A DNA stretch of 64,000 bases from Thermobaculum terrenum ATCC BAA-798 (GTDB taxonomy: Bacteria > Chloroflexota > Chloroflexia > Thermobaculales > Thermobaculaceae). The DNA lies in NCBI RefSeq assembly GCF_000025005.1, contig NC_013526.1, positions 310,001 through 374,000 on the forward strand, written 5' to 3'. This document shows, piece by piece, positions 14,539 through 56,809 of the stretch. The notes beneath the pieces were generated by a model. That model searched no databases, was not told the origin of the DNA, and worked only from the letters and a program-made list of their open reading frames with translations. A program made the position numbers and the translations under genes. Each line of letters begins with the position of its first letter. Positions within the stretch are counted from its first letter, which is position 1.

Positions 14539-14829
14539 GTGTTGGAGCCTTGTAGGGGTTAGAAGTGTCTACCAAGCAGAATCTATGTCGGCACGGCAAG
14601 CGCCCCTGGACAGGTGGGGCCGCTAGCTGATCCCGTTGCTTAGAGTGGTTGCCGAATGGGGTCTTGGTAGGTAAGCTTTGGGGAATGTTTGGGGCGCGAC
14701 TGCGGTCCCTCGGCTTGATGTTGGGCTGAAGATCGCTATGGATGGTAGGGATGGGAGTGGATGCCTAAATCTGCGAGGTTTGCTTCTAGTAAAATCTCTG
14801 TCAAGGTGCTGCTTAGCACCTCTGCTAGC
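14539..14829. other. Intergenic stretch between aldolase gene and RiPP island
   Basis: No convincing gene on either strand; the open frames here have no family features or ribosome sites. A hairpin AGGTGCT-GCTT-AGCACCT at 14804-14821 lies just past the 3' end of the leftward glycosyltransferase frame and could end that transcript, though it lacks a strong U tract. Confidence 0.5.
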
Positions 14830-16231
14830 CTATACTATGGTATCTAGCTCTTTGCTTGCGTATGGGGCAAAGGAGCTGAGGAATCTAATCGGTCTTGGAG
14901 GTAACGAATCATAACTACTTGCGTCTTTCAATTCCCTAAACAAAGCAATTAGTTTCTCTACTGTGTGGTCGATCAGGAAATAAGCTAGTGCCCTAGCCCG
15001 TGCGGATCTCCCTAGGCGTCTTCTAAGCTTCTCGTCTTCTATGAGCATACCTAGGTAATGTGCTAGTTGATCCGTATCTACTGCGACGTTGTCTGAGAAA
15101 GGAGGTGTAGCCACGCATGACGAACATCTCTTCCATGCTTTCAGCTTGAGGGGCATTCCAATAAGTGTCTACAAGAAAGCCATCTACGCCATCCCTTACG
15201 ATCTCGCGATATCCAGACCAAGAAGTGCAAACTATGGGAACTGCGTGGAGCATAGCTTCCACTATGGAGAGTCCAAAGGATTCAGATATGGTGTTTGATG
15301 GGGATACGAATATATCGCAACCACTAAGCAGGAGGTTTTTCTCCACATCAGATATATTCGGGCGGATCTCAAGTAGGTCTAGGAGACCATAATTGGTAGC
15401 ACTAAGCCACAAAGGCTTCACATCGGTAGAGCTTGCATATCCGGCTAGCAACAGCTTAAACATCTTGCCCTGAGCCTTCAACTTCGCACTGGCCTCGAAT
15501 AGGCTATTGAAATCAGCCTTGTCCCAGCTACATAGTCGTCCCAAGAATACTATGACGGGAGTCTCATCCCACATTAATGATGCGCGTGCAATCCTTTTTG
15601 GTATGGGGTGTACGCAAGGGACACCATAATGGATTACATGTACATTGGGTGGAGGCGTGTCGATACCAATGAGGGATGAAATATTATTCCAATGGCTTAG
15701 GAATACCTTCTTTACAGCGTTGCTTGGAGCTATTATCGTATCCGTTGGCTGACGAAGAGCAGCTAAAGAGGCTATGAATGCTGGCAACTGGTTGGGATAG
15801 CCGATGCCGTGTACCAAGGTTACTATAGGAAACGTCTTACCGAAGGATGCTCTTAGCATGGCTGGCTTCCAAAGGTGAGGTTTTGCTGGTTCGAACCAGA
15901 TCACGTCTTGGGTGTCCAACCAACGGCTTAGGCTAGTGAAAGCTAAAGAGGTTGTCCCTGGTATACCTGACTGCTCAATTCCTACCACTGCGAACTCGTT
16001 GACATTTGGATGGCATGCCATCCTCTCGCATAACTACTTGGTCAGAAGCAACCTACCATGGATGGGCACATGATAATTGCCTACACTCGTAAGTTGCTCA
16101 GGCAGAAGGTCCTCAAATAAGAATGTGCCGATCCTTATACCATGTTTTGGGTCTGGATGACGGGGAGGTACGTCTCCATTATCTATACCATTTGGCCTGC
16201 ATTTTGAACATCTCCGCATAGTATCCACCAA
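14830..16231 (-). pseudogene. Family 4-like glycosyltransferase, broken by a stop codon and a frameshift
   Basis: Three pieces read as one protein. The N-terminal piece (from 16231) gives RIGTFLFEDLLPEQL...HGRLLLTK and meets TAG at 16034-16036. The same frame then continues with LCERMACHPNVNEF through the GT-B body, including VFLGRL, LLLAGY and the donor-binding SPSNTISESFGLSIVEAM...GYREIVRDGVDGFLVDTYW. Near 15092-15108 the frame must shift by one base to SDNVAVDTDQLAHYLGML...RRRLGRSARARALAYF, a normal GT4 C-terminus that ends at 14830. The start overlaps the end of the ABC exporter gene. It would have been a tailoring enzyme of the RiPP cluster; two sequencing errors are the alternative explanation. 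Confidence 0.75.
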
Positions 16232-18044
16232 GAGCTAAGAGTTGTGAGTGATCGCCCTGTTCCACAACCGTACCATTTACAAGCACTACTATGTGATCTG
16301 CCATCCTAACAGTACTTAATCTATGACTTATGATAATTGCAGTATGGCCTTCGAACAGTTTGCGAAAGCGATCGAACAATTCTCTCTCGGCTTGTGCATC
16401 CAGGGCTGCGGTCGGTTCATCGAGGATCACTAGCTGGGCATCACGTACAAAAGCCCTAGCTAGCGCGATCTTCTGCCATTCCCCTCCCGATAGGTCAGTA
16501 TCACCTAACTCGCGCCCCAGGCGTGTGTATATCCATTTGGGGAGTTTTGCTGTTAGTTTATATGCATCAGCTTTCTGTAAGGCCAGCAGCAATCGATCTT
16601 GATCCTCCATCCTACTGATATCTGCGATAGCTACGTTTTCCTTGATGGTAAACTCATAGCGAACAAAGTCTTGGAATATAGCCGCTATCCTGCTTCTTAG
16701 ATCATCTAGATCGTAATCCTTTAGGTCCACCCCATCCAAGAGTATTCGACCCTCCTGTGGGTCGTAAAACCGCAGGAGCAGTTTGACTATCGTGGTCTTG
16801 CCCGCGCCATTTGGTCCCACTAGCGCCAGTACCTGGTCTGGTTCCCAAGTGAATGAGATGCCTTTCAAAACAGGACTGTTGTTGCCTGGATAGGTAAACC
16901 ATACGTCCTGGAACTCGATTCCCCTCTCGATGGTGTGGGGTACGCATCGATGGGTTTGCGCCTGCTGTAGATCCGCTGGCACGTCAAGGAGCTTGAACAA
17001 GCTTGGTAGAAAGATGACGGACTTTGGTATCTGGCCCAAGATCGCGCTCAATTCCAGTAGTCTGGATTGCATCAACATAGCTGCACCACCGTACAACACC
17101 AAGTCTCCTACTGGGGACAGGTTTTGAGCCAAATTCCATATAAGGTACATATATACCCCGGCAATGCCCGCGGCTGAAACGGCTGAGGCTAGGGACAGCC
17201 TTAGAGAGAGCCCCCTGCGTATTTTGTCTAGCTGTCCTAGTGTGTGCTCAAAGCTGCTGGCGTATCTGAACTGAAAGTAAGGCCAAAGCCAATATGAACG
17301 AACGTCCTTTGCCGCCTCTGGAGTTAGTTGAGTTCTCTTCCAGTAACCAAGCTTGCGGGATTCTGATGTCTGTGTATACAGATGTCTAGTGGTGCTAGTG
17401 CCATATCTCCACTGAGCTAGCATTTGGGGCAGTGCAGTTGCTAACACCAGCAAAAGTGCCAGAGGGTGGAGATGCGCCAGTGTTGCAGCCAGCCCTATCA
17501 TGGTACACAGGTTGACGAAGACGCCAGTGCTCACCGTTAGTATCTCCAGGCCGCTCTGAGGAGCGTACCTACGAACACGCTCCCAGTCGTCGGCTATCTG
17601 TGGGTCCTCGAAATGCGAGAGTCCAGGCCATTTGCTGGTAGCCAGTAACAGTTTTCTGTTGACCTGACCGGTAACGCGATCTGCCAGTATGCTCCTCAGG
17701 GTATCATTCAGTGGCACTAGAACCTGACCTAAGGTAATTATCAAGACTGCTATCAGTATGAGGTATCTCAGGCTGGGTGACCAAAAATGACTACTTGAGT
17801 GGTGGCCGGATAAGTTAGTGACTATCCTGTCGATAACCAGCTTGGAGGCTACTAGCTCGGCCGTTGGTAGGATGGCTTGTAGAATGCTCGTCAACAATAT
17901 ACCTACTGTTAGGCTTGGGTTGGTGCGCCAAACCAGCCCAATAGCCCGGCTACACAGCCATAAGAAGTTGCGAGTACTTTTGACTAAAGAGCTCTTTGAG
18001 TGCATAGCTTCCCTCAGCAGATGACTGCGGGTTACTGTTCTCAC
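16179..18044 (-). CDS. ABC exporter, fused membrane and ATPase domains (RiPP cluster)
   Basis: 621 aa. A six-span membrane domain (about 45-345) precedes an ATPase domain (about 375-615) with Walker A GPNGAGKT, Q-loop IFQDFVRYEFTIKENV, signature LSGGEWQKIALARA, Walker B LVILDEPTAALD and H-loop IISHRLSTV. There is no N-terminal C39 peptidase, so it does not cleave a leader. It starts with GTG overlapping the methyltransferase stop (GTGA). Full length and without visible lesions, unlike two of its neighbours. It would export the modified peptide. Confidence 0.87.
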   Translation of the reverse strand: MRTVTRSHLLREAMHSKSSLVKSTRNFLWLCSRAIGLVWRTNPSLTVGILLTSILQAILPTAELVASKLVIDRIVTNLSGHHSSSHFWSPSLRYLILIAVLIITLGQVLVPLNDTLRSILADRVTGQVNRKLLLATSKWPGLSHFEDPQIADDWERVRRYAPQSGLEILTVSTGVFVNLCTMIGLAATLAHLHPLALLLVLATALPQMLAQWRYGTSTTRHLYTQTSESRKLGYWKRTQLTPEAAKDVRSYWLWPYFQFRYASSFEHTLGQLDKIRRGLSLRLSLASAVSAAGIAGVYMYLIWNLAQNLSPVGDLVLYGGAAMLMQSRLLELSAILGQIPKSVIFLPSLFKLLDVPADLQQAQTHRCVPHTIERGIEFQDVWFTYPGNNSPVLKGISFTWEPDQVLALVGPNGAGKTTIVKLLLRFYDPQEGRILLDGVDLKDYDLDDLRSRIAAIFQDFVRYEFTIKENVAIADISRMEDQDRLLLALQKADAYKLTAKLPKWIYTRLGRELGDTDLSGGEWQKIALARAFVRDAQLVILDEPTAALDAQAERELFDRFRKLFEGHTAIIISHRLSTVRMADHIVVLVNGTVVEQGDHSQLLALGGYYAEMFKMQAKWYR

Positions 18045-18928
18045 TTGATAGCGGTGAGGTAAATACCTCCACCACGTATCTTTCCTTGCCCACTCTCGAC
18101 TAAGGGCAAAAAGTGAGCTGTAAGCTGTTGAATCTCAGATTCGGTCAGGGCAACCTGCATAGCCTCTAGTATACTGGGGACCTTCGGATTCTGTGCACGT
18201 CTTATATAGGTATCCCAACTAATCGGTCTAGCCTGTGATATGCTCACATGCAGGTCGGCATAGATCTCTTCAAAGCCGACTGCAAGAGCGTGAGAGATCA
18301 GCTCGCGCTCATCGATCTCTAAGACCTGCACAAGTGGGTTGCTTAGCTGATCGTAAGCAGCCCTTACCTTACTTACCAAGTGACTTACATTTCCTACCTC
18401 ATACTCATCGAAGGGCTGCCTTCCTTCCATGAATCCTAGACGACTTACCGGCTCGAACAAAGATAAACGTGCCCCTGGCTTAAGTACCCTGTGAATTTCC
18501 TCAAATACATTCACTCTATTGGTGACAAAGATCAATACAGCTCGGATCACAACTGCATCTATAGAGTCGCTCTCTATCTCGGTCAGTTTTGTTGCCGAGG
18601 CTTGTATGAAACGGCATCTATCGATTACCTGTTCTTGAGTCGCCTTTTGTCTACAATAGTCTAATAACGCTTTTGAAGTGTCATTAAAGATTACTATCCC
18701 CTGTTTGCCAACTCTTTCAAGAGCTCCGAAGGCTAGAAGGCCGGTGCCAGTACCTATGTCTAAGACGGTATCTCCAGGGGCAATAAAGGCATTGGCAAGC
18801 ACTTGCTCTCGTACTTGATTAGGTGAACTCTCAATCTTGACGAATTCATCAAGGTCGTTACCATATCTTCTGCAAAGTAACCACTCTGCAAAAGGATCAG
18901 AATAAGATTTTGTCGTTGACATTGCCAC
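18041..18928 (-). CDS. SAM-dependent methyltransferase of the RiPP cluster
   Basis: 295 aa. Motif I VLDIGTGTGLLAFG (about 54-67), FNDTSKALLDYC, and IDAVVIRAVLIFVTN define a class I fold; the C-terminal half has family-specific sequence (FEPVSRLGFMEGRQPFDEYEVGN). Peptide-modifying methyltransferases often accompany ATP-grasp peptide ligases; whether this one acts on the peptide's carboxylates, a side chain or a sugar is unknown. The GTG at 18926-18928 has GAGG 5 bases upstream; ATG at 18922 is a close alternative. It is 19 bases past the ATP-grasp stop and overlaps the exporter start, so one operon. Confidence 0.82.
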   Translation of the reverse strand: MAMSTTKSYSDPFAEWLLCRRYGNDLDEFVKIESSPNQVREQVLANAFIAPGDTVLDIGTGTGLLAFGALERVGKQGIVIFNDTSKALLDYCRQKATQEQVIDRCRFIQASATKLTEIESDSIDAVVIRAVLIFVTNRVNVFEEIHRVLKPGARLSLFEPVSRLGFMEGRQPFDEYEVGNVSHLVSKVRAAYDQLSNPLVQVLEIDERELISHALAVGFEEIYADLHVSISQARPISWDTYIRRAQNPKVPSILEAMQVALTESEIQQLTAHFLPLVESGQGKIRGGGIYLTAIK

Positions 18929-18947
18929 AGATACCTCAGGAGCGAAT

Positions 18948-19907
18948 TTAATAACTACGGGGTGTGGCCGTGGCTGCCAAGGCTCTGGCTATGGATCTAG
19001 CGATCGGCAACCCTGTGTGCTCCTGTAGCCATCCCCAAGCTCCCATGGGATTCACCTCCAGGAAGACGTACGTACCATCAGTTCGAACTAGCAGTCTTGG
19101 CTCCATAATTTAGCCCTAATATCAACGTAAATTGCTTTATTGTATTGGCTATGATACTGGCACCTGGTGGACTTGATACTTCGCCAATCTCTTGTTTGTG
19201 TAGAATAACCTAACTTATCCCCAGGAGAGTGTATCTCGATTCCATAAATCTGCATATAGCTGTGGCACATATTCTTGAAACATGGTGCTGCATGGCACGC
19301 AAGAGTCGAGATTTTGCAGATCCTCCTTGCTGACTAGAGTAGTGTAAGGTGCCCTGAGCATCACACCAGGGCGAGGGTTCGAATCAATATGAAAGCTCTT
19401 ACATACTACCTGTCCACCGAAATGCCGATAAAACTCTTTGAGCTCATAAGGGTTGTTCGATATTATAGTCGCCGGTATAGTTAGGCCTACTGAAGAGGCA
19501 ATATGAAGTTGATAAGGCTTATAGCTAGCTCTTAGTCCAGCATCTGGGTGATTCATCCATACGATAGGCTCTATAGACCTGAGTATTCCTCCCACGCATT
19601 CTGCACATTCAGCCTTTGCGTATCGTATGACATCTTTGTGAAGCTTGTCTCCGAAGTTGAAGTCACTTACATGACCATTCCAAATACCTGTGACCGTACC
19701 TAAGTCTATTTGCCTGCCTGCGTATGTTAGCAGGACACTCCATGTCCTGCTAGAAGTAATGTGGCAGTCTATCTTGCTTTCCAGGGGAAAGGCAGATAAG
19801 TCATAAACAAAGTGATCAACACCGAGGGCATCGAGCTCAGATGCCACCCAATGCATAGCTGCGTCTGCAGACTGTGTCAACAGCATTACGAGAGCAGAGA
19901 GGCTCAT
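18948..19907 (-). pseudogene. MvdD/TgmB-like ATP-grasp peptide ligase, three frameshifts
   Basis: The 960-base span would encode about 319 aa, the family length. Frame 1 (19907 to about 19265) gives the N-terminal and central domains (ASELDALGVDHFVYDLSAFP, WMNHPDAGLRASYKPYQL, FQEYVPQLYADL). The next frame gives YGIEIHSPGDKLGYSTQTRDWRS (about 19260-19160). A third gives ANTIKQFTLILGLNYGA (about 19150-19097). The first frame then returns with LLVRTDGTYVFLEVNP and GAWGWLQEHTGLPIARSIARALA, the Mg-ATP site and C-terminus, to TAA at 18948-18950. Each shift skips one base, so all three are in the same sense. Such ligases form ester or amide crosslinks between Ser/Thr/Lys and Asp/Glu. As written it cannot make a full enzyme. 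Confidence 0.82.
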
Positions 19908-19939
19908 TTAAGATAACTTTGCACCTCCTTGTGGTTGGT

Positions 19940-19970
19940 ATCAGGGTTGCTACTACAGAGCAACCCTGAT
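19940..19970 (-). other. Strong hairpin between precursor and ligase genes
   Basis: ATCAGGGTTGCT and AGCAACCCTGAT form a perfect 12-bp stem with a 7-base loop, 19 bases past the precursor stop codon. There is no U tract. In RiPP operons such a hairpin often stabilises the abundant precursor mRNA or lowers read-through to the enzymes. Confidence 0.65.
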
Positions 19971-19989
19971 CATGTCATATATCTGTGCT

Positions 19990-20301
19990 CTAAGAGTCCT
20001 CATAGCTTTCCTTGTCTTTCTTTGTATCGTCGCCCCATCCTCCAGTCCAGGTGCCACTAATGCTGGCATAGGGGTTGGCCGCAACATAGGAGTCTTGATC
20101 CACTGTGGGAAGAGTTAGCGTAAATGGTAGAGCGGACTTATCTACGGCCTCCAAGTCTACCACCTCTATCTCTCCCTGCGTTAGTATCTGCCATGACAGG
20201 TCTCTTGGAAGTCCAGATAAAACCAGACGTACATGCTCCTTATCTTCTGTCATCAAAGCATCTAGTAAAACCTCGAGCTTTTGGTCTTGCTTGCCAAACA
20301 T
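19990..20301 (-). CDS. Candidate graspetide-type RiPP precursor peptide
   Basis: 103 aa. Residues about 1-50 look like a helical leader (MFGKQDQKLEVLLDALMTED...). A motif ALPFTLTLP (about 57-65) recalls the hydrophobic PFF-type recognition segment of ATP-grasp precursors. The last 22 residues, GGWGDDTKKDKESYEDS at the end, are packed with Asp/Glu next to Thr, Ser and Lys, the donor and acceptor set needed for omega-ester or omega-amide crosslinks. AAAGGAGG lies upstream of the ATG. It is first in the operon and followed by a strong hairpin. I know no close family, so 'precursor' is inferred from position, size and core composition. Confidence 0.65.
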   Translation of the reverse strand: MFGKQDQKLEVLLDALMTEDKEHVRLVLSGLPRDLSWQILTQGEIEVVDLEAVDKSALPFTLTLPTVDQDSYVAANPYASISGTWTGGWGDDTKKDKESYEDS

Positions 20302-20352
20302 GGTGTTTACATCCTCCTTTATACTTTTATAGGTGTGTTGTAAACAGTACCT

Positions 20353-20397
20353 ATTAAGTTAAGATAGTATTATTAAGAGTATTAAGATAATATTAAG
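20353..20397 (-). promoter_or_regulatory. Four CTTAAT direct repeats upstream of the RiPP operon
   Basis: CTTAAT (minus strand) occurs at 20353-20358, 20372-20377, 20381-20386 and 20392-20397, spaced 19, 9 and 11 bases, close to one or two helical turns. Such arrays are typical of OmpR/PhoB-type or SARP-type activators binding in tandem. They lie 52-96 bases upstream of the precursor start, where an activator would sit. Confidence 0.45.
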
Positions 20398-20552
20398 TCG
20401 TGGCGTGTAAGGCCCTTATTGATCAAAGACCCTCAAAGAACTTAAATCCCAGATGTAGGCTAAGCTGTAGGATGTGCTCAAAAGCAGATTGATAAATATA
20501 CCCTCTCAGCATGCTGCCCATGACCCCCAGGTGCAGGACTGATTTGCCCGTC

Positions 20553-20561
20553 TGGTAGAAT
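20553..20561 (+). promoter_or_regulatory. Extended -10 promoter candidate for the selenoprotein gene
   Basis: TGGTAGAAT fits TGn-TATAAT, with TAGAAT at 20556-20561. Start of transcription near 20568 would leave a leader of about 31 nt containing the GGAGGG ribosome site. Confidence 0.4.
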
Positions 20562-20598
20562 AATTTGGCCGAACCCAAATATATCGCTGGAGGGAAGC

Positions 20599-20871
20599 AT
20601 GCACGAGAAGTTGCCGTTCAGGATCGAGTACTGCACCTCTTGAGGGTACCTCAAGCGAGCCGCCGGTCTGGCGGAGCAGGTGCTGCACGACTTCCACCCG
20701 GGCATCAAGGAGCTGGTGCTGGTGCCGTCCTCGGGTGGGGTGTTTGAGGTGAGCCTCGGCGACGAGCTGCTGTTCTCAAAGAGGCAGGAGGGGAGGTTCC
20801 CGGAGCCCGAGGAGATACTGCGGGTGCTGGAGACCCGAGGCGTCAAGAAGGTGCCCCCGAAGCAGGAGTGA
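20599..20871 (+). CDS. SelW/Rdx-family selenoprotein with in-frame UGA
   Basis: 90 aa if TGA at 20641-20643 is read as selenocysteine. The frame gives MHEKLPFRIEYCTS-U-GYLKRAAGLAEQVL, then KELVLVPSSGGVFEVSLGDELLFSKRQEGRFPEPEEIL and TGA at 20869-20871. The Rdx (SelT/SelW/SelH) thioredoxin-like fold has a CxxC or CxxU redox motif after the first strand; here it is C12-T-S-U15, with Sec exactly where the catalytic residue belongs, and GGVFEV and FPEPEE are standard family motifs. Translation as stop would leave 14 residues. GGAGGG lies 4 bases before the ATG. A hairpin with GGUCU loop follows the UGA at the right distance. Selenocysteine insertion genes are not in this window. Confidence 0.87.
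20655..20677 (+). promoter_or_regulatory. bSECIS-like hairpin (selenocysteine insertion element)
   Basis: CCGCC (20660-20664) and GGCGG (20670-20674) close a five-base loop GGUCU (20665-20669), with GC/GC pairing below across a small internal loop. The loop starts 22 bases after the UGA, within the known spacing. GGUCU is the apical sequence of the Escherichia coli fdhF SECIS as I remember it, recognised by SelB. Confidence 0.75.
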
Positions 20872-20990
20872 TCGTGGCAGCAGGGCAACGCCCCGCTCCC
20901 ACAGTCCCCCTTGACCTTGGTCTCGGGCCAAGCTTGGCCCGTAGCCCCCAGAGGCGCCACATCTTTGATTGACATAACTATAGAAAGGTG

Positions 20991-21012
20991 TGAGGGCTGG
21001 GAGCAGCCCTCA
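20991..21012 (+). other. Hairpin just upstream of the kinase ribosome site
   Basis: TGAGGGCTG and CAGCCCTCA form a perfect 9-bp stem with loop GGAG, ending 2 bases before the GAGGAGGT ribosome site of the following gene. There is no U tract. It could be a 5' mRNA structure or a site limiting transcription from upstream. Confidence 0.5.
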
Positions 21013-21025
21013 TGAGGAGGTGAGC

Positions 21026-21928
21026 ATGTCCTTGGTGCCGGATAGCCTTGTGAGGGTCATGCAGGACCTGCACGGCGACGCGGGCAGGCAGTGGGTCGAG
21101 AGCTTGCCGGCGATCCTGTGGGAGCTGTCGAGTCGCTGGGGGGTGGAGGTTGGCGCTCCCTTCCCCGAGCTATCGTATAACTTCGTCTGCGAGGCCGTGC
21201 TGCCCGATGGACAGCCCGCGGTGATAAAGCTGGGGCACCCACGCGACGAGGCCTTCTGGCACGAAGCCGAGGCGCTGCGGGCCTTCGACGGCCGGGGGGT
21301 GGTGCGGCTGCTGGCGGAGGCCAGGGATCTGACGGCGATGCTGATCGAGAGGGCGCTTCCCGGAGCAAGCCTGCTCAGCCTGGGGGATGACGAGGCCATG
21401 ACCGAGGTAGCCGCCCGGCTCCTGCGGGACCTGCATGTGCCTCCTCCGGATGCCCACCGCTTCCCCACCCTTGCCGATTGGGGGCAGGGCATGCGCAGGC
21501 TGAGGGAGCGCTACGGAGGGTCCAGCGGGCCCTTCCCTCCCCGGCTCTTGGAGGCAGCGGAGGCTTGTTGGCGGGAGCTGCTCGCGTCACAAGTAAGGCC
21601 GATGCTGCTCCATGGCGATTGCCATCACTACAACATCCTGTCCACGGAGGGGGGCTGGGTGATCATAGATCCCAAGGGGGTGGTGGGCGATCCCGCGTAC
21701 GAGGTGGCGCCCTTCATGCTCAACCCCGCAGACGTGGCGCGCAGCCCCAGGAGGGTGTTCGAGCGCAGGCTGGATATCATCTGCGACCTGACGGATCTGG
21801 ACAGGCAGAGGATCGTCCGCTGGACGGTGGCCCACAGCATCCTCTCGGCGTGGTGGGGGGTGGAGGACCACGGCGAACCCTGGACGGATGCGCTGGCAGT
21901 GGGCGAGATCTTCTGCTCGATGCTCTAG
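21026..21928 (+). CDS. Aminoglycoside/streptomycin 6-kinase-like phosphotransferase
   Basis: 300 aa. The APH(6)-like layout is visible: ATP-binding Lys in QPAVIKLGHP (about 67), catalytic HGDCHHYNIL (about 193-202) and the metal-binding Asp in WVIIDPKGVVGDPAYEVAPFM, close to the streptomycin 6-kinase IDPKGxxGDPAyD signature. Such enzymes inactivate streptomycin-type aminoglycosides, but environmental homologues often act on other small molecules, so resistance is not established. The ATG at 21026 is chosen for its GAGGAGGT site. It converges with the GT2 gene. Confidence 0.82.
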   Translation: MSLVPDSLVRVMQDLHGDAGRQWVESLPAILWELSSRWGVEVGAPFPELSYNFVCEAVLPDGQPAVIKLGHPRDEAFWHEAEALRAFDGRGVVRLLAEARDLTAMLIERALPGASLLSLGDDEAMTEVAARLLRDLHVPPPDAHRFPTLADWGQGMRRLRERYGGSSGPFPPRLLEAAEACWRELLASQVRPMLLHGDCHHYNILSTEGGWVIIDPKGVVGDPAYEVAPFMLNPADVARSPRRVFERRLDIICDLTDLDRQRIVRWTVAHSILSAWWGVEDHGEPWTDALAVGEIFCSML

Positions 21929-48212: not shown

Positions 48213-49241
48213 ATGGGCAGACAGAAGCCGAGCATGAGAGACATCGCCAGGGCGGCCAACGTGTCGGTCTCCGCGGTCTCCCTCGTAGCCCGCAACAAGC
48301 CGGGGGTGTCGGAGGAGACGCGCAACCGCGTGCTGTCCATCATGGCCGAGATGGGCTACTCGCCCTCGGTCAAGGGCAACGGGCACACCGGCACGGTAGG
48401 GCTGCTCATCGAGAAGGGCTCCATGCCTGTCATCGTGGACATATTCTACGGCGATATCATCCGTGGCCTGCAGTCCGAAGCCCAGCGCCTAGGGTATCAG
48501 GTGGCGCTGCACATGTTCGACCGCGCCCAGGAGAACCTCGACAGCCTGCGGGACAGCCTACTTGGATCTGTGCAGGGCCTAATCGTGGCCAACGACGGCG
48601 ACATCTCGCACGACATGGTGGTGCAGCTGCAGTCCTTCGAGCTGCCTATGGTGCTGATCGAGAGCTACGTGCCCGGCAAGGAGCTCCACTGCGTGATAGG
48701 GGACAACTTCGCGGCCGGCTATACCGCGATGCAGCACCTGATCGACCTCGGGCACCGGGACATAGCGGTGCTGCGTGGCCCGACAAAGTACAGCAGCCTC
48801 GTGGACCGCTTCCACGGCGCGATGTCCGCGCTTGCCGAGGCGAGGCTCTCGGTGCCTGCCGAGATGATGCCCGCGCCGGTGTCCGGCCATCCTCAGAAGG
48901 GCTACCTACAGATGAGAGAGATCCTGCAGGCTGGACTGAAACCCACCGCCGTGTTCGCCGTCAGCGACAAGACCGCCTTCGGGGCGATGAACGCCATCCG
49001 TGAGGCTGGCCTGCGGATTCCCCAGGATATATCCGTGGTCGGCATAGACGACGTATCCGAGAGCGCCTACACCCACCCACCTCTGACCACGGTCCACATA
49101 CCCCGTCAGGAGATGGGCATCCTGGCGATGCGGAAGCTGCATCGGCTGATGGAGGGGGAGCGCGAGATCCCCACCAAGACGCTCGTCTACAGCCGGCTCG
49201 TCGAGCGGCAGTCCACATCTAGGTTCTCCGACAAGAGCTAG
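48213..49241 (+). CDS. LacI-family repressor, divergent from the arabinan operon
   Basis: 342 aa. The helix-turn-helix SMRDIARAANVSVSAVSLVARNKPGVSEETRNRV (about 7-40) and hinge are followed by a periplasmic-binding-protein-like sugar domain (TVGLLIEKG, IVANDG, GYTAMQHLIDLGHRDIAVLRGP, VVGIDDVSES). It should repress the GH51/GH43 operon until an arabinose-derived sugar binds. TATAAT lies 24 bases upstream. The pattern of divergent repressor and importer operon recurs at 59 kb. Confidence 0.9.
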   Translation: MGRQKPSMRDIARAANVSVSAVSLVARNKPGVSEETRNRVLSIMAEMGYSPSVKGNGHTGTVGLLIEKGSMPVIVDIFYGDIIRGLQSEAQRLGYQVALHMFDRAQENLDSLRDSLLGSVQGLIVANDGDISHDMVVQLQSFELPMVLIESYVPGKELHCVIGDNFAAGYTAMQHLIDLGHRDIAVLRGPTKYSSLVDRFHGAMSALAEARLSVPAEMMPAPVSGHPQKGYLQMREILQAGLKPTAVFAVSDKTAFGAMNAIREAGLRIPQDISVVGIDDVSESAYTHPPLTTVHIPRQEMGILAMRKLHRLMEGEREIPTKTLVYSRLVERQSTSRFSDKS

Positions 49242-49551
49242 AATCTCTTGGTCCTTCTGGCTAAGTATTTTGTTGCATGATCTGCTTGCCTTGGCTAATC
49301 CGTAACGCGGCTTGTTTGGAGGGGTGTGAGAGGGTTTGCGCACCCTACTATCGAGCCTCAGATAACCGAGCGGCATTTCATTTAAGGTAAGACTGGGAAG
49401 AATATGATTGAGGGCCCACAGCTCTCAGGGCACGGGATCTAAGGGTTGTGCTTCGCATTCAGCTCGGGGAGGTAATTGACACAACCTAGGGGTAGATGTA
49501 ATCTGATGTTTGACGAGACGGGGCGAGAGTCAGGAGTGTGAGGAGGATACC
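49242..49551. other. Intergenic region before a damaged permease gene
   Basis: About 310 bases without a credible gene. It contains a good sigma70-type promoter at its right end (49476-49504). No repeats or terminator were noticed. Confidence 0.5.
49476..49504 (+). promoter_or_regulatory. Sigma70-type promoter for the damaged transporter remnant
   Basis: TTGACA (49476-49481), a 17-base spacer and TAATCT (49499-49504), about 47 bases before the GTG start. The promoter looks intact although the first gene behind it is broken; it may still drive the aminotransferase gene. Confidence 0.55.
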
Positions 49552-50349
49552 GTGAGTGGGGGAAAGCTAAGTCGAAGGCGTTTCCTGGGGTTACTTAGTG
49601 CCATGCCCATGGTAATCACGTCACTGCGACCCATGTCGGAGTTCTATCAGATGCCCATAGCGCTCTTTCCGCGGCATCCTTCACTGGAAAACCACCACAT
49701 TCTGTACTAGCGTTCGCTGTTCGGACGAGGATTATTGAACAGCACGGTTCTAGCTACTATCCCGGTTGTGCTGCAGGTACTCTTCAGTGCGCTTGCGGGT
49801 TACACGTTTGCCAAGCTGAGATTTCGCGCGCGCGAGCCGCTATTTGTTGTGCTATTAGCAACAATGATGATCCCCACAGGCGTGGGGATGGTGTCCAACT
49901 ACATCATTATGTCTAAGCTGCACTGGATAGACACCTACTATCCATTGATTATCCCAGGGATCGCTAATGCCTTTGGCATCTTCTGGATGCGGCAGTATTG
50001 TCTATCCTTATCCAATGAGCTGCTAGATGCTGCGAGGATAGATGGAGCAGGAGAATTCGGCATCTTCTGGCGGATCGTATTGCCCGTCATCCGCCCTGCA
50101 CTAGCCTCGCTTGCGATATTTGTGTTCCTTGATAGCTGGAACTCCTTCCTTGGGCCGTTGGTGTTCCTGCGGAGCCAGGAGAAGTTTACCGTCCAGCTCT
50201 GGCTTTCGGTTATAGCTCGCCAGGGCAATGTTGTGCAACCGGTGATAGTAATGGCTGGCTCCGTATTGGCTAGTGTACCAATAGTTATCCTTTTTGCCAC
50301 CCTGCAGCGGCACTTTGTGTCTGGGCTCGCGGCAGAGAGTTTGAAGTAG
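49552..50349 (+). pseudogene. Tat-signal/permease chimera with an internal stop (MalG-type remnant)
   Basis: GTG at 49552 with GAGGAGG upstream begins SGGKLSRRRFLGLLSA, a twin-arginine signal as in binding proteins. It then runs without a break in frame into MPMVITSLRPMSEFYQMP...LFPRHPSLENHHILY, which is the end of span 1 and the first loop of a MalG-type permease. TAG at 49708-49710 interrupts; the same frame continues as RSLFGRGLLNSTVLATIP through the rest of the permease (coupling loop LDAARIDGAGEFGIFWRIVLPVIRP) to 50349. The simplest reading is an old deletion that joined the start of a binding-protein gene to the body of a permease gene, followed by a nonsense mutation. Confidence 0.8.
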
Positions 50350-50380
50350 CTGTATATCTTGTTAGAAAGGAGAAGGTCCC

Positions 50381-51667
50381 ATGTCAACGCAGTCGAGAGG
50401 TGTAAGCTCTGGCAAGCTTGCTATTGACGGTGGTGCTCCTGCGGTCATACATCCGCTGCCCCCTATGTACCCAGGAGGTATGAGGATTGGGCAGGAGGAG
50501 GAGGCATCGGTGCTTGAGGTTCTGCGGAGCAAGCGGCTCTTTAGGTACTATGGTCCCGAACCTGGCCCATCCAAAGTGGCCGAGCTAGAACAACGGTTCG
50601 CCAAGATGGTTGGTACTCGTTATGCTCTGGCGGTGTCTTCTGGTACCGCGGCGCTTGCCGCTGCGCTAGCAGCGCTTGAGGTGGGTCCAGGTGATGAGGT
50701 GATCGTGCCTGCTTATACCTGGATCTCCACAGCTGCTGCGGTGGTTGCGGTGGGTGCCGTGCCGGTGATCGCGGAGGTGGATGACTCTCTCACGCTTGAT
50801 CCTGCAGACTTTGAGGAGAAGATCACCAAATACACGAAGGCGGTCATACCCGTGCATATGCGTGGCACACCAGCGAATATGGACGCGATCATGTCCATAG
50901 CTAACCGCTATGGGCTCAAGGTATTGGAGGATGTGGCTCAGGCCGATGGGGCGAGTTACCATGGACTTAGACTAGGGAGTATTGGGCATGCTGGCGCCTT
51001 TAGCCTGCAGTTCAACAAGATACTGACGTCTGGCGAGGGGGGAATGGTAACGACCAGTGAGGAAGAAGTATACGAGCGTGCACTCATGTACCACGACGTG
51101 GCCGCCAGCCAGAGAGCTGGCCTCCCTCAGGATAGGACGATCATTGGGGTTAACTGTCGAATGTCAGAGTTACAAGGAGCAGTGGCGCTGGCCCAACTGG
51201 ACAAACTGGAGGGGATTCTTAGGGACAGCCGGAAACACAAACGGGCGCTCAAGGAGGCCATAGCGGACGTCGTCGAATCGCGGACCATGGGATTCCGACG
51301 GCTACACGATGAGGATGGTGAGGCCGGTATCTCGCTTGTGTTCTATATGCGAACACCCGAGGCAGCGCAGTATGTAGTTAGCGCTCTGCATGCAGAGGGA
51401 CTGACATGCAGCAGTGTACTGTTCCAGAGAGGTTCATCTGATTACCATGTCTACTTCCACTGGACACCGATCCTCAACAAGCAGTACTGGGGAGCCCAGG
51501 GTCCTTGGAGATGGAACCAGCGTGACGTTAGCTATGACCGGGAGATGTGTCCTCGGACGCTGGATCTGCTTGGGCGGGCGGTACACCTAGACATCAGTCC
51601 CGACCTAACAGATACTAATGTAGGGGAGATGGTGGTGGCGATCAACAAGGTGCTTGAATCGCTGTAG
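50381..51667 (+). CDS. DegT/DnrJ/EryC1/StrS-family aminotransferase
   Basis: 428 aa PLP-dependent sugar or cyclitol aminotransferase. Landmarks: LAIDGGAPAVIHPLPPMYPGG at the start, ALAVSSGTAALAAALAALEVGPGDEVIVPAYTWISTAAAVV, VLEDVAQADGASYHGLRLGS (PLP ring contact) and FSLQFNKILTSGEGGMV, whose Lys would bind PLP. The family makes amino sugars, aminocyclitols or AHBA. It is followed 11 bases on by a deacetylase-like gene, suggesting a joint pathway on an amino sugar or cyclitol. AAAGGAGAAGG precedes the ATG. Confidence 0.9.
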   Translation: MSTQSRGVSSGKLAIDGGAPAVIHPLPPMYPGGMRIGQEEEASVLEVLRSKRLFRYYGPEPGPSKVAELEQRFAKMVGTRYALAVSSGTAALAAALAALEVGPGDEVIVPAYTWISTAAAVVAVGAVPVIAEVDDSLTLDPADFEEKITKYTKAVIPVHMRGTPANMDAIMSIANRYGLKVLEDVAQADGASYHGLRLGSIGHAGAFSLQFNKILTSGEGGMVTTSEEEVYERALMYHDVAASQRAGLPQDRTIIGVNCRMSELQGAVALAQLDKLEGILRDSRKHKRALKEAIADVVESRTMGFRRLHDEDGEAGISLVFYMRTPEAAQYVVSALHAEGLTCSSVLFQRGSSDYHVYFHWTPILNKQYWGAQGPWRWNQRDVSYDREMCPRTLDLLGRAVHLDISPDLTDTNVGEMVVAINKVLESL

Positions 51668-51678
51668 GAGGATCTACT

Positions 51679-52536
51679 ATGGGGACTATGTTGATAGGTT
51701 ATGATGTGGAGTGGCGAGGGGCTCGAGGGGATGGGGATGTAACTGAGCGTTTCCTGGATAGGGTCCAGGAGCTACATAATCGCCTAGGAATCCCTGCCAC
51801 GTTGTTCATCTTAGGGCAGACACTGGAGCGGTGTCCCCAGGCATTCCAGCCTCTGGTAGATGACCCGCTCTTCGATCTGCAGCAGCACACGTATTCCCAC
51901 CAGTTACTGAAGACGGTCTATATAGAAGACGGGGGCAGGGTGCAGGTAATCAGGGGTGCGGATCTGGATACCATTAGGTGGGAAGTACATCTGACGAATG
52001 ATCTGCTCCGTGACCTCCTTGGTGTGGAGTGTATAGGGCTGACAGGGCCGTGGTGCTACTACCGGGGTCTCCGAGACCGCCCGGATATACTTCAGGTACT
52101 GTGGGAGGAGGGTATACGCTTTACTCGTACAGACGGCCGCAATGAGCATGACTATCATCCTGTCCCACTTGATCTACAACCCTACTGGTACGAGCACGTG
52201 GGTTTCCCCGAGATGCTTGAGCTAACTATTCATGGCTGGCATGATTGCGTGCTGCGTGATAGCCTTGGCTGGCAGGATCTCGATGGGTACGTGGAGTCGG
52301 TTAAGCCATACATCGGTCGTGCTGCAAGCGAAAATAAGCTCTTTTCTTACGTCCAGCATGATTGGTCCAGTATACAGGAAGATCCAGAAATGAAGGCCAC
52401 GGAGGCGCTGCTCCGATATGCCCAGGAGCGACAATTGACCTTCATGAGCTGTAGAGAATACTATGAGTTGGCATGCAGCATGCGTGAGCACCGCGAGGCC
52501 ACCACTTCTGTCTTGCGAAGAGAAGCCTCGCGTTGA
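51679..52536 (+). CDS. Polysaccharide deacetylase-like (NodB fold) protein
   Basis: 285 aa. It opens with IGYDVEWRG (catalytic Asp region of the NodB fold), then GIPATLFILGQTLERCP and LQQHTYSHQLL, the second metal-binding motif (H-x3-H). Motif 3 may be GLTGPWCYYRGL, a variant of RxPxG. Carbohydrate esterase family 4 enzymes remove N-acetyl groups from sugars using a metal. Close spacing to the aminotransferase gene argues for action on the same small-molecule sugar; no signal peptide, so cytoplasmic. Variant motifs make the exact reaction uncertain. Confidence 0.75.
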   Translation: MGTMLIGYDVEWRGARGDGDVTERFLDRVQELHNRLGIPATLFILGQTLERCPQAFQPLVDDPLFDLQQHTYSHQLLKTVYIEDGGRVQVIRGADLDTIRWEVHLTNDLLRDLLGVECIGLTGPWCYYRGLRDRPDILQVLWEEGIRFTRTDGRNEHDYHPVPLDLQPYWYEHVGFPEMLELTIHGWHDCVLRDSLGWQDLDGYVESVKPYIGRAASENKLFSYVQHDWSSIQEDPEMKATEALLRYAQERQLTFMSCREYYELACSMREHREATTSVLRREASR

Positions 52537-52692
52537 TTGGTGTCGTGGCCTCTACAAGCACATTTGAAGAGGGTCACCTTGTTCTGTTGGTAGAGGAATG
52601 GAGCCGATGGCTGATCACTGAAGGGGAGAATCGGCGCGTGACTCTGGTGCGGAGTGAGGTCCGAGGGTAGAGAGTGTGCCGGGAGGTAGGGC

Positions 52693-53829
52693 GTGCTGAT
52701 CAGGGAGGTGAGGGCATTCGGATTGAGGGGTGCGACGCCGCGTGGGGGCTGGGCTACCGAGCTCAGGCCTGAGGACTGTGTGCACACGCTCGTGGCTGTT
52801 GTCACCAACGAAGAACTGGTAGGGTGGGGCAGCGTCTTCACCAGCGAGGACTTGGTGCGCGCCTCGCTGGCTGTGTTGGAACCGTTGTACATCGGCGAAA
52901 GTGCGCTCGAGCCCGAACGGGTATGCCGGAAGATGCACGAGCACACCTTCTGGCTCGGCAGGGGTGGTGCGATCACCCACACTATCAGCGGTATCGATAT
53001 CGCCCTCTGGGATATCTTGGGCAAGGCTACTGGTCAATCTGTAGGCCGCCTGCTTGGGGGGAGATACAGGGACCGGGTGCGGCCGTACGCCTCCCTGCTA
53101 ATGGATGAACCGGATCTCCTTAGGGAACATTTGATGGAGCTACGGGCACAGGGTTTTCGCGCCTTCAAAATCGGTTGGGGGCGTTTCGGCCGCCAGGACC
53201 AACAATGGGACGAGAGCGTGGTGAAAGCTGCAAGGGAGGCCATCGGGCCGGAATCTCTGCTAATGGTGGATGCTGGCGGGAGCGATGCCTTCTGGAGCCA
53301 GGGATACAAGTGGGCAATACGCACGGCCCATATGCTTGCGGAGTACGATGTGTATTGGTTCGAAGAACCGCTATGTCCAGATGCACTTGAGGAATATAGG
53401 CTCCTACGTCAACAGGCACCTATACTCATTGCCGCTGGCGAAGTTTTGACGCGGCACCAGTCTTTCGAGCCATGGCTACGTTCTAGGGCTCTAGACATCG
53501 TCCAACCGGATGTCACGAAGGTGGGAGGAATTAGCGAATCGCGCAGGATCGCCTGGATGGCCCAGAGTTACGGTATCAGGCTCATCCCTCACGGGTGGAA
53601 CACTGCTGTGGGTTTGGCTGCCGACCTACAACTAGCCGCGGCATTGCCGGATACCGATCTGGTTGAATATAAGACAGGTTCTCCGTATATCGATGAGATT
53701 ACAGCCAGTCCATGGACGCTGGATGAAGATGGTATGCTCCCAATACCGAACAGGCCAGGTTTGGGCATCGATTTGGATCTAGATGCCATCGCAAAGTATT
53801 CTGGTCACCGGGATTTGGGTTTGTGCTAG
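52693..53829 (+). CDS. Enolase-superfamily enzyme (mandelate racemase/muconate lactonizing group)
   Basis: 378 aa. The capping domain (1-120) includes DCVHTLVAVVTNEELVGWG and HTISGIDIALWDILGKATGQSVGRLLGG. The barrel has FKIGWG (the Lys acid/base position is K in FRAFKIG), the metal ligands Asp in LMVDAGG, Glu in WFEEPL and Glu in IAAGEVL, and the late His in IPHGWN. That set fits sugar-acid dehydratases of the MR subgroup. The start is GTG with GGGAGG upstream. The last codons and TAG lie inside a 42-bp palindrome. The 156 bases before it hold no recognised signal. Confidence 0.87.
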   Translation: MLIREVRAFGLRGATPRGGWATELRPEDCVHTLVAVVTNEELVGWGSVFTSEDLVRASLAVLEPLYIGESALEPERVCRKMHEHTFWLGRGGAITHTISGIDIALWDILGKATGQSVGRLLGGRYRDRVRPYASLLMDEPDLLREHLMELRAQGFRAFKIGWGRFGRQDQQWDESVVKAAREAIGPESLLMVDAGGSDAFWSQGYKWAIRTAHMLAEYDVYWFEEPLCPDALEEYRLLRQQAPILIAAGEVLTRHQSFEPWLRSRALDIVQPDVTKVGGISESRRIAWMAQSYGIRLIPHGWNTAVGLAADLQLAAALPDTDLVEYKTGSPYIDEITASPWTLDEDGMLPIPNRPGLGIDLDLDAIAKYSGHRDLGLC

Positions 53830-53854
53830 GGCATGCCCTAGCACAAACCCAAAT
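53813..53854. repeat. Perfect 42-bp palindrome with no spacer
   Basis: Bases 53813-53833 are the exact reverse complement of 53834-53854, centred on GCATGC. The left half encodes the last codons and stop of the enolase-superfamily gene. It lies between convergent genes, but there is no U tract, so it is not a standard intrinsic terminator. A true inverted duplication or an assembly fold-back are both possible. Confidence 0.9.
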
Positions 53855-53943
53855 GTCAAGCCACGATACCCCAAGCCATTGCGCCCTACCGGATCTATAC
53901 ATTGGTCTTGGAGCAGTATCGTGCGCGGTGCCGGAGCTCTCTT

Positions 53944-55860
53944 TTAGATGAACTCCCTGATCCACACGCGCATCTGTCCAGGCTCGCGGTTGGCCCAGGC
54001 GTAGTAGGGGATGGCCACGAGCTTGCAGGGCGTGCTCGCGGGGTCGCCCTGCGTGCGCGGCCTGTAGAGCCTGCCCGCCCACGCCTCGTCTGGGGGGGCG
54101 AGCCTCGCGTCCGCTCGGAGCAGCACCACCCCTCCCAGCGTGTCGGGGGCGAGCTCCTCCGAGAAGGCGGCGTCGCGAGGCAGCAGTACGTCCCTGAGGT
54201 CGACGCCGGGGTTGTCGGCCGACTCGATGCAGTAGAGGATGGGCCCGCGCATGATGGCCACCCTGCCGGCGTCCTCCGAGAGGTAGGGATGCGCCTCCAG
54301 CCTCCGCACGGTCATCGGCAGCCGCAGGCGTACCTCGTCCCCGGCGCGCCAGGTCCTCCTGAGCTCCAGGTAGGTGCCAGGGGTGATCGGTGTGGCCGCA
54401 TCCTCGCCGTTGATCGCCACCTCGCCCCGCTCGCACCAGGAAGGGATGCGCAGGTAGATGCCCAGCTCGCCCTCCTCTGGCACCTGCTCCAGCCTGATGG
54501 CCACCTCCCCGCTCCAAGGGTAGGACGTGTGCTGTGAGAGGAGCACCTCCCGGCCGTCCTGCAGCCCCAGCTTGGCGCGTCCCTCCGAGTACAGGTGCAC
54601 CCAGATCCCGTCTCGGGATGTCGAGTAGAAGTAGCCCCCCAGCGAGGCCAGCGTGCGCGCGACGTTCGGTGGGCAGCAGGCGCACCCGAACCACTCCTGC
54701 CGGCGGTGGGTGCCCTCGTCCTCCAGGGGGTTCTGATAGAAGTACAGTGCCCCATCGAGGGATATCCCCGGCAGCACGGCGTTGTACAGGGTGTGCTCGA
54801 TGAGGTCGGCGTACCGCGCGTCCGCCGTCAGCAGCAGCATGCGCCAGTTCCACATGACGCTGCCGATCGCCGCACAGGTCTCGGCGTAGGCGCGCGCATT
54901 CGGCAGCTCGTACTCCTTGCCGAAGGCCTCCCCCTCGTAGCGGGAACCTATGCCTCCTGTCACGTACATCTTCTTGGTGGTCATGTTCTCCCACAGCCGC
55001 TCGAGCGCCCGCATGATGGCCTCGTCGCCCGTCTCGGCGTAGATATCTGCAGCGCCCGCGTTGAGGTACACCGCGCGGACGGCGTGCCCCACTATCTCGC
55101 GCATCTCCCTGAACGGTACGTGGTCCTGGTGGTACTCGGGGCCGAAGTGCCCCCAGGCCCTCCCGAGCAGGCCTTGCCCTCGCACGTCCAGGAAGTACTT
55201 GGCCTGCTCCAGGTAGCGCTCGTTGCCGGTAGCTCGGTAGAGCTCGACCAGCCCCATCTCCACCTCGGGATGCCCATCTACCCCCTCGCGCTTGCCCTGG
55301 CTGGCGGGCCCGAAGGTGTCGCAGATGTGGTCGGCGAATCGGGTGGCGATCTCGAGCAGGCTGGTCTTGCCCGTGGCCCTGTAGTGGGCCACGGCCGCCT
55401 GGAAGAGGTGGCCGGCGCAGTACATCTCGTGCAGGTCGAAGTTCGTCCAGCGCTCCGAGGCCCGCTCGCGGGTGAAGTAGGTGTTGAGGTAGCCGTCGGG
55501 GCGCTGGGCGGGGGCGATCTCCGCTATGACCGCGTCCACCTCCGCCTCCAGCTGGGGATCGGGGTGCCCGGCCAGCGACCAGGAGGCCGCCTCCAGCCAC
55601 TTGTAGGCGTCGGAGTCGGCGAACACCGGGCCCCTGAACTCGACGTCCAGCTTGCCCGCCGCCCTCCTGAAGTTGTCCATCACGCCCGAGGCCTCCAGGT
55701 GCTGCCTCTGGTGAGGTATGGTGCTCTCCCTGTTGATCGCCAGGCGGGGTGCCCAGAAGCCTCCCAGGGAGACGTCCCCCACGGCCACGGCCCGCAGGCG
55801 CGCCATGGGGCTATGGGTGGTGTCCACAACTATCGATCTGGTGCGCTGTTCGACTGTCAA
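53944..55860 (-). CDS. GH127 beta-L-arabinofuranosidase
   Basis: 638 aa. The GH127 (DUF1680) pattern is clear: VSLGGFWAPRLAINRESTIPHQ at the start, PDGYLNTYF, HEMYCAGHLFQAAVAHY, YVTGGIGSRYEGEAFGKEYELPN, AYAETCAAIGSVMWNWRM (Cys329) and EWFGCACCPPNVARTLASLGGYFYS (Cys395, Cys396). In this family a Zn-bound cysteine acts as nucleophile. It removes beta-linked L-arabinofuranose, as found on hydroxyproline-rich plant proteins. No signal peptide, so it acts on imported glycosides. The last gene behind its own ABC importer. Confidence 0.93.
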   Translation of the reverse strand: MTVEQRTRSIVVDTTHSPMARLRAVAVGDVSLGGFWAPRLAINRESTIPHQRQHLEASGVMDNFRRAAGKLDVEFRGPVFADSDAYKWLEAASWSLAGHPDPQLEAEVDAVIAEIAPAQRPDGYLNTYFTRERASERWTNFDLHEMYCAGHLFQAAVAHYRATGKTSLLEIATRFADHICDTFGPASQGKREGVDGHPEVEMGLVELYRATGNERYLEQAKYFLDVRGQGLLGRAWGHFGPEYHQDHVPFREMREIVGHAVRAVYLNAGAADIYAETGDEAIMRALERLWENMTTKKMYVTGGIGSRYEGEAFGKEYELPNARAYAETCAAIGSVMWNWRMLLLTADARYADLIEHTLYNAVLPGISLDGALYFYQNPLEDEGTHRRQEWFGCACCPPNVARTLASLGGYFYSTSRDGIWVHLYSEGRAKLGLQDGREVLLSQHTSYPWSGEVAIRLEQVPEEGELGIYLRIPSWCERGEVAINGEDAATPITPGTYLELRRTWRAGDEVRLRLPMTVRRLEAHPYLSEDAGRVAIMRGPILYCIESADNPGVDLRDVLLPRDAAFSEELAPDTLGGVVLLRADARLAPPDEAWAGRLYRPRTQGDPASTPCKLVAIPYYAWANREPGQMRVWIREFI

Positions 55861-55889: not shown

Positions 55890-56795
55890 TCAGCCTTTGA
55901 GCCCGGTCAGCACTATGCCCTGGACGAAGTAGCGCTGTGCCAGGAAGAAGAGCGCTATCACGGGCAGGATCATGACGGTGGAGGCCGCCATCAGGTACTG
56001 CCACTGGGTGGAGTATAACCCTTTGAAGGTGGCCAGGCCCAGGGCAACCGTGTACTTCTCCGGAGAAGATAGGTAGATCAATGGTCCTATGAAATCATTC
56101 CAATTGTTGAGGAAGGTGAAGATTGCCACAACTGTCAGCGCTGGCCGCGCCAGCGGCAGGATAATCTGCCAGTAGATGCGGAACTCGGATGCGCCGTCTA
56201 TCCTAGCCGCTTCCGACAGCTCCACCGGTATCGTGCGGAAGAACTGCCTGAGCAGGAAAATGTTGAATATGCCCCCTCCGAACCAGTTAGGCACGATGAG
56301 GGGATAGTAGGTATCGATCCATCCCAGGTACTTAAATATGATGTAGGAGGGGATCATAGTCACGGCGTACGGGAGCATAAGCGTGCTCAGGAGGACCATA
56401 AAGATCAGATCTCTGCCGGGAAACCTCAGCCTCGCGAAGCCATAGGCACACAGCGACGAGGACAGCAGGATGCCTACCATGTTCAGAACGGTGATCACCA
56501 AGGTGTTCTTCACGTACAGCCCGAAGGGCAGAGTGGTGAGCGCCTCGGGATAGTTGCTCCACCGGACCGGGTTGGGTATCCACTGCGGGGGATATCTGAA
56601 GACCTGCCAGGTCTCTTTGAGCGAGGTGCTTATGAGCCAGAGGAAAGGGAGCATCATCACCACGGCGCCAGCACAGAGCACCAACCACACAAAGCACCTG
56701 CCCAGTTGTCTTCTGTACGCTGTCCTGGTCCTCGGGAGTACGAGGCTCCTGGCCAGCTCTCCAGCTCCTGCTGTGGGGTGCGATCTGGTCGACAT
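55890..56795 (-). CDS. Sugar ABC importer permease (MalG-type), GH127 operon
   Basis: 301 aa, six spans. ISTSLKETWQVFRYPPQWIPNPVRWSNYPEAL after span 1, NTLVITVLNMVGILLSSSLCAYGFARLRFPG and the coupling loop SEAARIDGASEFRIYWQIILPLARPA are typical. Partner of the MalF-type subunit encoded 14 bases upstream. No ATPase gene in the operon. Confidence 0.9.
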   Translation of the reverse strand: MSTRSHPTAGAGELARSLVLPRTRTAYRRQLGRCFVWLVLCAGAVVMMLPFLWLISTSLKETWQVFRYPPQWIPNPVRWSNYPEALTTLPFGLYVKNTLVITVLNMVGILLSSSLCAYGFARLRFPGRDLIFMVLLSTLMLPYAVTMIPSYIIFKYLGWIDTYYPLIVPNWFGGGIFNIFLLRQFFRTIPVELSEAARIDGASEFRIYWQIILPLARPALTVVAIFTFLNNWNDFIGPLIYLSSPEKYTVALGLATFKGLYSTQWQYLMAASTVMILPVIALFFLAQRYFVQGIVLTGLKG

Positions 56796-56809
56796 AATCC
56801 AACCTCCTG

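Follow-up and report, generated by a model that had tools for sequence, protein, structure and literature searches.

Among the closest described relatives of the locus analysed here are the actinobacterial tgmA-tgmB-methyltransferase operons (TIGR04186/04187/04188, group 13 graspimiditides), in which, as in our locus, a small precursor, a ligase and a methyltransferase follow one another in tight order. The methyltransferase of such actinobacterial graspetide operons is usually of the isoaspartyl type, according to the main text of two surveys (PMC8939145, PMC13097080). Further likenesses are found to the microviridin clusters (MvdC/MvdD, MdnB/MdnC), which share the ATP-grasp ligase family and have an ABC exporter nearby, to single-ligase loci of the Ktedonobacteria type in other Chloroflexota, whose ligase is 30-32% identical and is directly preceded by a small gene with a PF motif, and to the branch 2 graspetide loci of the CPR, in which, according to the main text of PMC8939145, the ligase has a UbiE-like methyltransferase as its neighbour and the leader a P-hydrophobic motif.

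With the tgm operons the locus also shares the ligase profile, TIGR04187 being the best match, whereas its methyltransferase is UbiE-like, its precursor matches no family model, and an ABC exporter and a GT4-type glycosyltransferase (GT) are present in addition. It differs from the microviridin clusters in having one ligase instead of two, an exporter without a C39 peptidase domain and no microviridin core motif, and assignment to that class was rejected because the genome holds a single ligase and the precursor core, as read, lacks the motif. Compared with the CPR branch 2 loci, for which the main text of PMC8939145 describes no GT, the host group is unrelated, and the methyltransferases are likened by class alone. 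The gene set is of a known kind, set apart from the other ligase loci sampled by the addition of the GT4 gene, and the sole known copy of this variant is broken.

The genome of the thermophilic soil bacterium Thermobaculum terrenum YNP1 (ATCC BAA-798) consists of chromosome 1 (2,026,947 bases, 48% G+C) and chromosome 2 (1,074,634 bases, 64% G+C) and carries 41 pseudogenes (PMC3035366). The stretch analysed, referred to as the window, comprises 64 kb of chromosome 2 (positions 310001-374000) and contains the following features, numbered from the first base of the window.

14600-20600, no strand: A+T-rich island holding the operon, edges at about 14.4-14.8 and 20.6 kb
20352-20397, minus strand: CTTAATA heptamers clustered ahead of the precursor gene, candidate regulator-binding site
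20301-19990, minus strand: putative graspetide precursor of 103 amino acids, an open reading frame with the ribosome-binding site AAAGGAGG before its ATG
19940-19970, minus strand: hairpin with a perfect 12-bp stem in the precursor-ligase interval, no T-run
18948-19907, minus strand: ATP-grasp graspetide synthetase (MvdD/TgmB type), pseudogene, open over 19907-19215 and 19106-18948
18928-18041, minus strand: class I SAM-dependent (UbiE-like) methyltransferase of 295 amino acids, open (Methyltransf_31 1.9e-18, Ubie_methyltran 3.6e-18)
18044-16179, minus strand: ABC exporter, permease plus ATPase by domain profiles, 621 amino acids, open
about 16178-14830, minus strand: GT4-type glycosyltransferase, pseudogene (PF00534 1.3e-23 on 15023-16021)

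An initial annotation made from the sequence had proposed five tightly packed leftward genes in the order precursor, ligase, methyltransferase, ABC exporter and GT, and the list of open reading frames together with direct reading of the sequence confirms this layout on the minus strand from 20301 to 14830. The GTG start of the exporter gene (18044) overlaps the methyltransferase stop (18041), and the exporter stop is in turn overlapped by an ATG with which the GT region begins (TAATG), while 82 nt separate precursor and ligase. Since such start/stop overlaps are ordinary operon packing, the GT and the methyltransferase are treated as members of the operon.

The family of the ligase is clear in spite of its broken state. 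In profile searches both pieces match TIGR04187, the N-terminal one at 4.4e-39 and the C-terminal one at 4.2e-12, and the N-terminal piece is also recognized by TIGR04185 and TIGR04184; with TIGR04187 each piece stays below the curated full-length cut-off because the gene is broken. The MvdD pre-ATP-grasp domain (PF21068) is recognized as well, and among solved structures the ATP-grasp ligases 5ig8, 5ig9, AMdnB (7m4s) and CdnC (7mgv) come closest. The proposed MvdD/TgmB-like identity is thus borne out by TIGR04187 and by the solved microviridin ligases, and a placement outside the peptide ligases was looked for in these searches and not seen. Related ligases align from 19907 to about 18963, that is over the whole length, in one frame, and the C-terminal piece (19106-18948) is back in the frame of 19907-19215. 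Between about 19255 and 19100, on the other hand, the reading frame is disrupted, pieces of the expected sequence being spread over different frames, with several stops. No second ligase was found anywhere in the T. terrenum genome. With its only ligase gene broken in frame the genome has no working ligase, and the locus is therefore a remnant that can no longer give rise to a cross-linked product.

The small gene upstream of the ligase has the features and the position of a graspetide precursor. It carries the leader motif LPFTLTL (residues 58-64) and a C-terminal core, SGTWTGGWGDDTKKDKESYEDS, which offers Thr, Ser and Lys as donors and Asp and Glu as acceptors; the "acidic-tailed" peptide of the initial annotation is accordingly retained as a small gene, but its tail is better described as a segment rich in Thr, Ser, Lys and Asp. 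No significant full-length homologue was found in a plasmid search, with the family models or in pairwise comparison with ten candidate precursors, the best pairwise alignment being equalled by 32 of 1000 shuffles and none being convincing. TIGR04186 gives no match up to E = 10, neither to this precursor nor to the candidate precursors beside intact Chloroflexota ligases. A short motif of the form PF-x-[LF]-x-aromatic does recur in small genes that immediately precede the ligases of other Chloroflexota (PFALRF, PFSLWY, PFSLLF, PFAFFF), its counterpart in the window being PFTLTL, and a leader motif "Phhx(1,2)h" is described for other graspetide precursors in the main text of PMC8939145. Shuffling the precursor sequence produces the pattern PF-x-[LF]-x-[FYWL] in 0.2% of cases, a figure that is optimistic as the pattern was picked after the sequences had been seen and was widened for the final Leu in the window; in short open reading frames of the neighbour loci it occurs 14 times among 1330, precursors counted in. 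Conservation of the small upstream gene, on which the initial annotation had staked its reading, is hence weakly upheld by a common short motif and position but does not extend to full-length homology. Upstream of the gene the heptamer CTTAATA forms two overlapping pairs, as against none in 100 shuffles, and one further copy was read directly. The hairpin downstream of the gene (MFE -24.8 kcal/mol, z -2.0) probably serves to curb readthrough or to stabilize the precursor mRNA.

The methyltransferase and the exporter are both open, and both agree with what had been proposed for them. By its profiles the methyltransferase is UbiE-like; an isoaspartyl-type enzyme (TIGR04188) was rejected, as the best profiles are UbiE/MenG and TIGR04188 is absent among the best 25, and the match to the PCMT Pfam (0.002) is below the gathering score. 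As UbiE-like methyltransferases occur in CPR graspetide loci described in the main text of PMC8939145, this part of the operon has a precedent. Its relatives in other Chloroflexota are 31-45% identical, and none of those examined adjoins a ligase. The exporter shows no peptidase domain in profile searches, and no ligase was found near those of its Chloroflexota homologues that were checked. Its closest paralogue in the same genome (44% identity) belongs to a chromosome 1 cluster for a lasso peptide (about 1,249,080-1,256,950), which encodes a cyclase, a B2 protein, a PqqD-domain protein and two ABC transporters. That cluster resembles the operon in its related exporter and in a GT gene nearby, of GT9 type, and differs from it in that cyclase, B2 protein and PqqD-type element replace the ATP-grasp ligase. 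The GT9-like gene there is split over two overlapping open reading frames in different frames.

Ligase profiles, matches to solved structures and operon layout establish that the T. terrenum locus is a real, decayed cluster of the graspetide type (RiPP), as had been suggested, and we consider it quite probable that it is what remains of an operon which, when intact, yielded a ligase-joined, tailored and exported peptide. The small gene with its strong ribosome-binding site and PF-type motif just before the ligase, the hairpin behind it, the lasso-peptide setting of the exporter's paralogue and the single occurrence of the ligase in the genome also speak for this reading. In such an operon the ATP-grasp ligase would bind the 103-residue precursor through its PF-type leader motif and would link Thr, Ser and Lys side chains of the C-terminal core to Asp and Glu side chains of the same core, as macrolactones or macrolactams. 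Tailoring would fall to the UbiE-like methyltransferase and the GT4 enzyme and export to the peptidase-less ABC protein, with another protease removing the leader. What speaks against a graspetide operon is that the precursor is without a significant full-length homologue, that the motif pattern was chosen post hoc, and that the operon membership of GT and methyltransferase is seen in one genome.

But would the peptide also have carried a sugar? Its glycosylation is suggested solely by the operon membership of the GT, and the substrates of GT4 and UbiE-like enzymes are of many kinds. The GT4 assignment itself is borne out by PF00534, with an additional weak match to PF13524 on 14830-15156. Profile searches found no close match to any characterised subfamily; the protein shares about 30% identity with its best matches in Chloroflexota and lies near exopolysaccharide, BshA and MshA profiles. 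No GT or methyltransferase related to those of the operon was found in 20 Chloroflexota single-ligase loci, nor in a further ligase locus (L115) and four unannotated plasmid loci; no GT is named in the annotated plasmid ligase loci. The survey is a modest one, as several of the 20 loci nearly duplicate one another, four sequences went into the GT model and the sequence of some loci stops near the ligase. The two surveys PMC8939145 and PMC13097080 do not name GTs among the companions of graspetide ligases in their main text, and no glycosylated graspetide appears in the literature on graspetides or microviridins together with glycosyltransferases, as represented mostly by titles and abstract openings. 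The remark of the initial annotation that a GT is unusual in an ATP-grasp peptide cluster therefore holds for the ligase loci sampled. The generic character of the enzyme and its absence from these loci would fit a plain graspetide cluster that a polysaccharide-type GT4 gene has joined by chance, or in which it serves the envelope or immunity, so that the peptide was never glycosylated. Then again, a start codon in the GT region overlaps the exporter stop, which implies translational coupling, and the GT gene has the base composition of the island and is in the same state of decay. We regard a cluster of this plain kind as a serious possibility that falls a little short of probable. That the locus instead represents a graspetide subclass, in which a GT4 enzyme dedicated to the pathway would act with the ligase and a methyltransferase of the UbiE-like class to give a macrocyclic, methylated and glycosylated peptide, appears rather doubtful to us; such a subclass would be known from this decayed copy alone.

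The initial annotation had further expected intact relatives that make glycosylated, crosslinked peptides, and none came to light in genomes, viral contigs or plasmids. Searches by way of the ligase with a single-protein scan of genome contigs and a scan of viral contigs yielded no intact relative, an alignment-based ligase scan returned three loci, two of them already known and none with this gene set, and plasmids searched by protein and by DNA contained no intact relative of the operon. Nor was a ligase found near the Chloroflexota GT homologues that were checked. Intact relatives, should they exist, would open a way to macrocyclic peptides of thermophiles that carry sugars.

The asserted state of decay, a broken ligase and GT beside an open exporter and methyltransferase, was verified by reading the lesions in their frames. 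The GT gene contains an in-frame TAG at about 16036-16034; its frame changes near 15.1 kb and probably a second time near the start of the gene. Homopolymers are a common source of indels in 454 reads. Reads of this type were used along with Sanger reads to finish the T. terrenum genome (PMC3035366), and were the breaks in ligase and GT mere sequencing errors, the cluster would be intact in the living strain. The consensus was, however, polished with Illumina reads to a stated error rate of less than 1 in 100,000 (PMC3035366), a rate far exceeded by several frame changes in one short stretch of the ligase together with the premature stop and the frame changes of the GT gene; a sequencing artefact is thus highly improbable and was rejected. 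What we see, then, is a dying RiPP cluster, in which precursor, methyltransferase and exporter stay open while the ligase and the GT each carry several lesions (at least two in either gene, none in the other three). By a rough estimate the chance that four independent lesions, spread evenly over the operon, all fall into these two genes, which make up about 43% of the operon length, is about 0.03. The distribution of lesions is hence mildly non-random, and lesions within one dead gene are no independent evidence of selection elsewhere.

The operon lies in an island that is richer in A+T than its surroundings, with a G+C content of 0.477 as compared to 0.646 for the remaining window, just as the initial annotation had stated. 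The transfer that it took this to suggest, in the sense of an import from another organism, is not established, for the composition of the island matches that of chromosome 1 of the same genome and A+T-richness alone is therefore no proof of import. Ten samples from chromosome 1 range from 0.45 to 0.54 G+C and ten from chromosome 2 from 0.60 to 0.66, and the raw tetranucleotide distance of the island is 0.136 to chromosome 1, where pieces of that chromosome average 0.155, and 0.60 to chromosome 2. In both measures the island is typical of chromosome 1, and a segment that moved from there to chromosome 2, instead of a recent import from another organism, is quite conceivable, though we stop short of calling it the probable origin. 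The Markov-corrected tetranucleotide correlation with chromosome 1 is 0.28 and lies at the low edge of the values for pieces of that chromosome (mean 0.50), a result with which foreign DNA of comparable G+C would also be compatible; moreover, chromosome 1 holds no second copy, and the ligase is missing from all six same-family genomes searched. Base composition does not discriminate between relocation from chromosome 1 and import of DNA with a similar G+C content. The island edges show no transposon, no tRNA and no clear repeat on the flanks, the best flanking direct repeat being 17 nt at 88%. A direct repeat (D1) connecting two coding segments looks like chance. Lower G+C (0.54-0.57) is also seen at 49000-54000 and 56000-57000 of the window, and these stretches are perhaps of chromosome 1-like origin.

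Two genes next to the island deserve mention. An open reading frame of the SelW/Rdx family at 20602-20871 on the plus strand contains an in-frame TGA at the CxxU position (EYCTS-U-GYLKRA) and matches TIGR02174 and PF10262 when the TGA is read through. As the T. terrenum genome has SelB and tRNA-Sec matches above cut-off, the product is probably a selenoprotein, one that ordinary gene callers truncate. Finally, a gene for an APH(6)-like kinase (20990-21928, plus strand) adjoins the island and matches PF04655 at 2.6e-42; with the resistance models of NCBIfam it falls short of the curated cut-offs.
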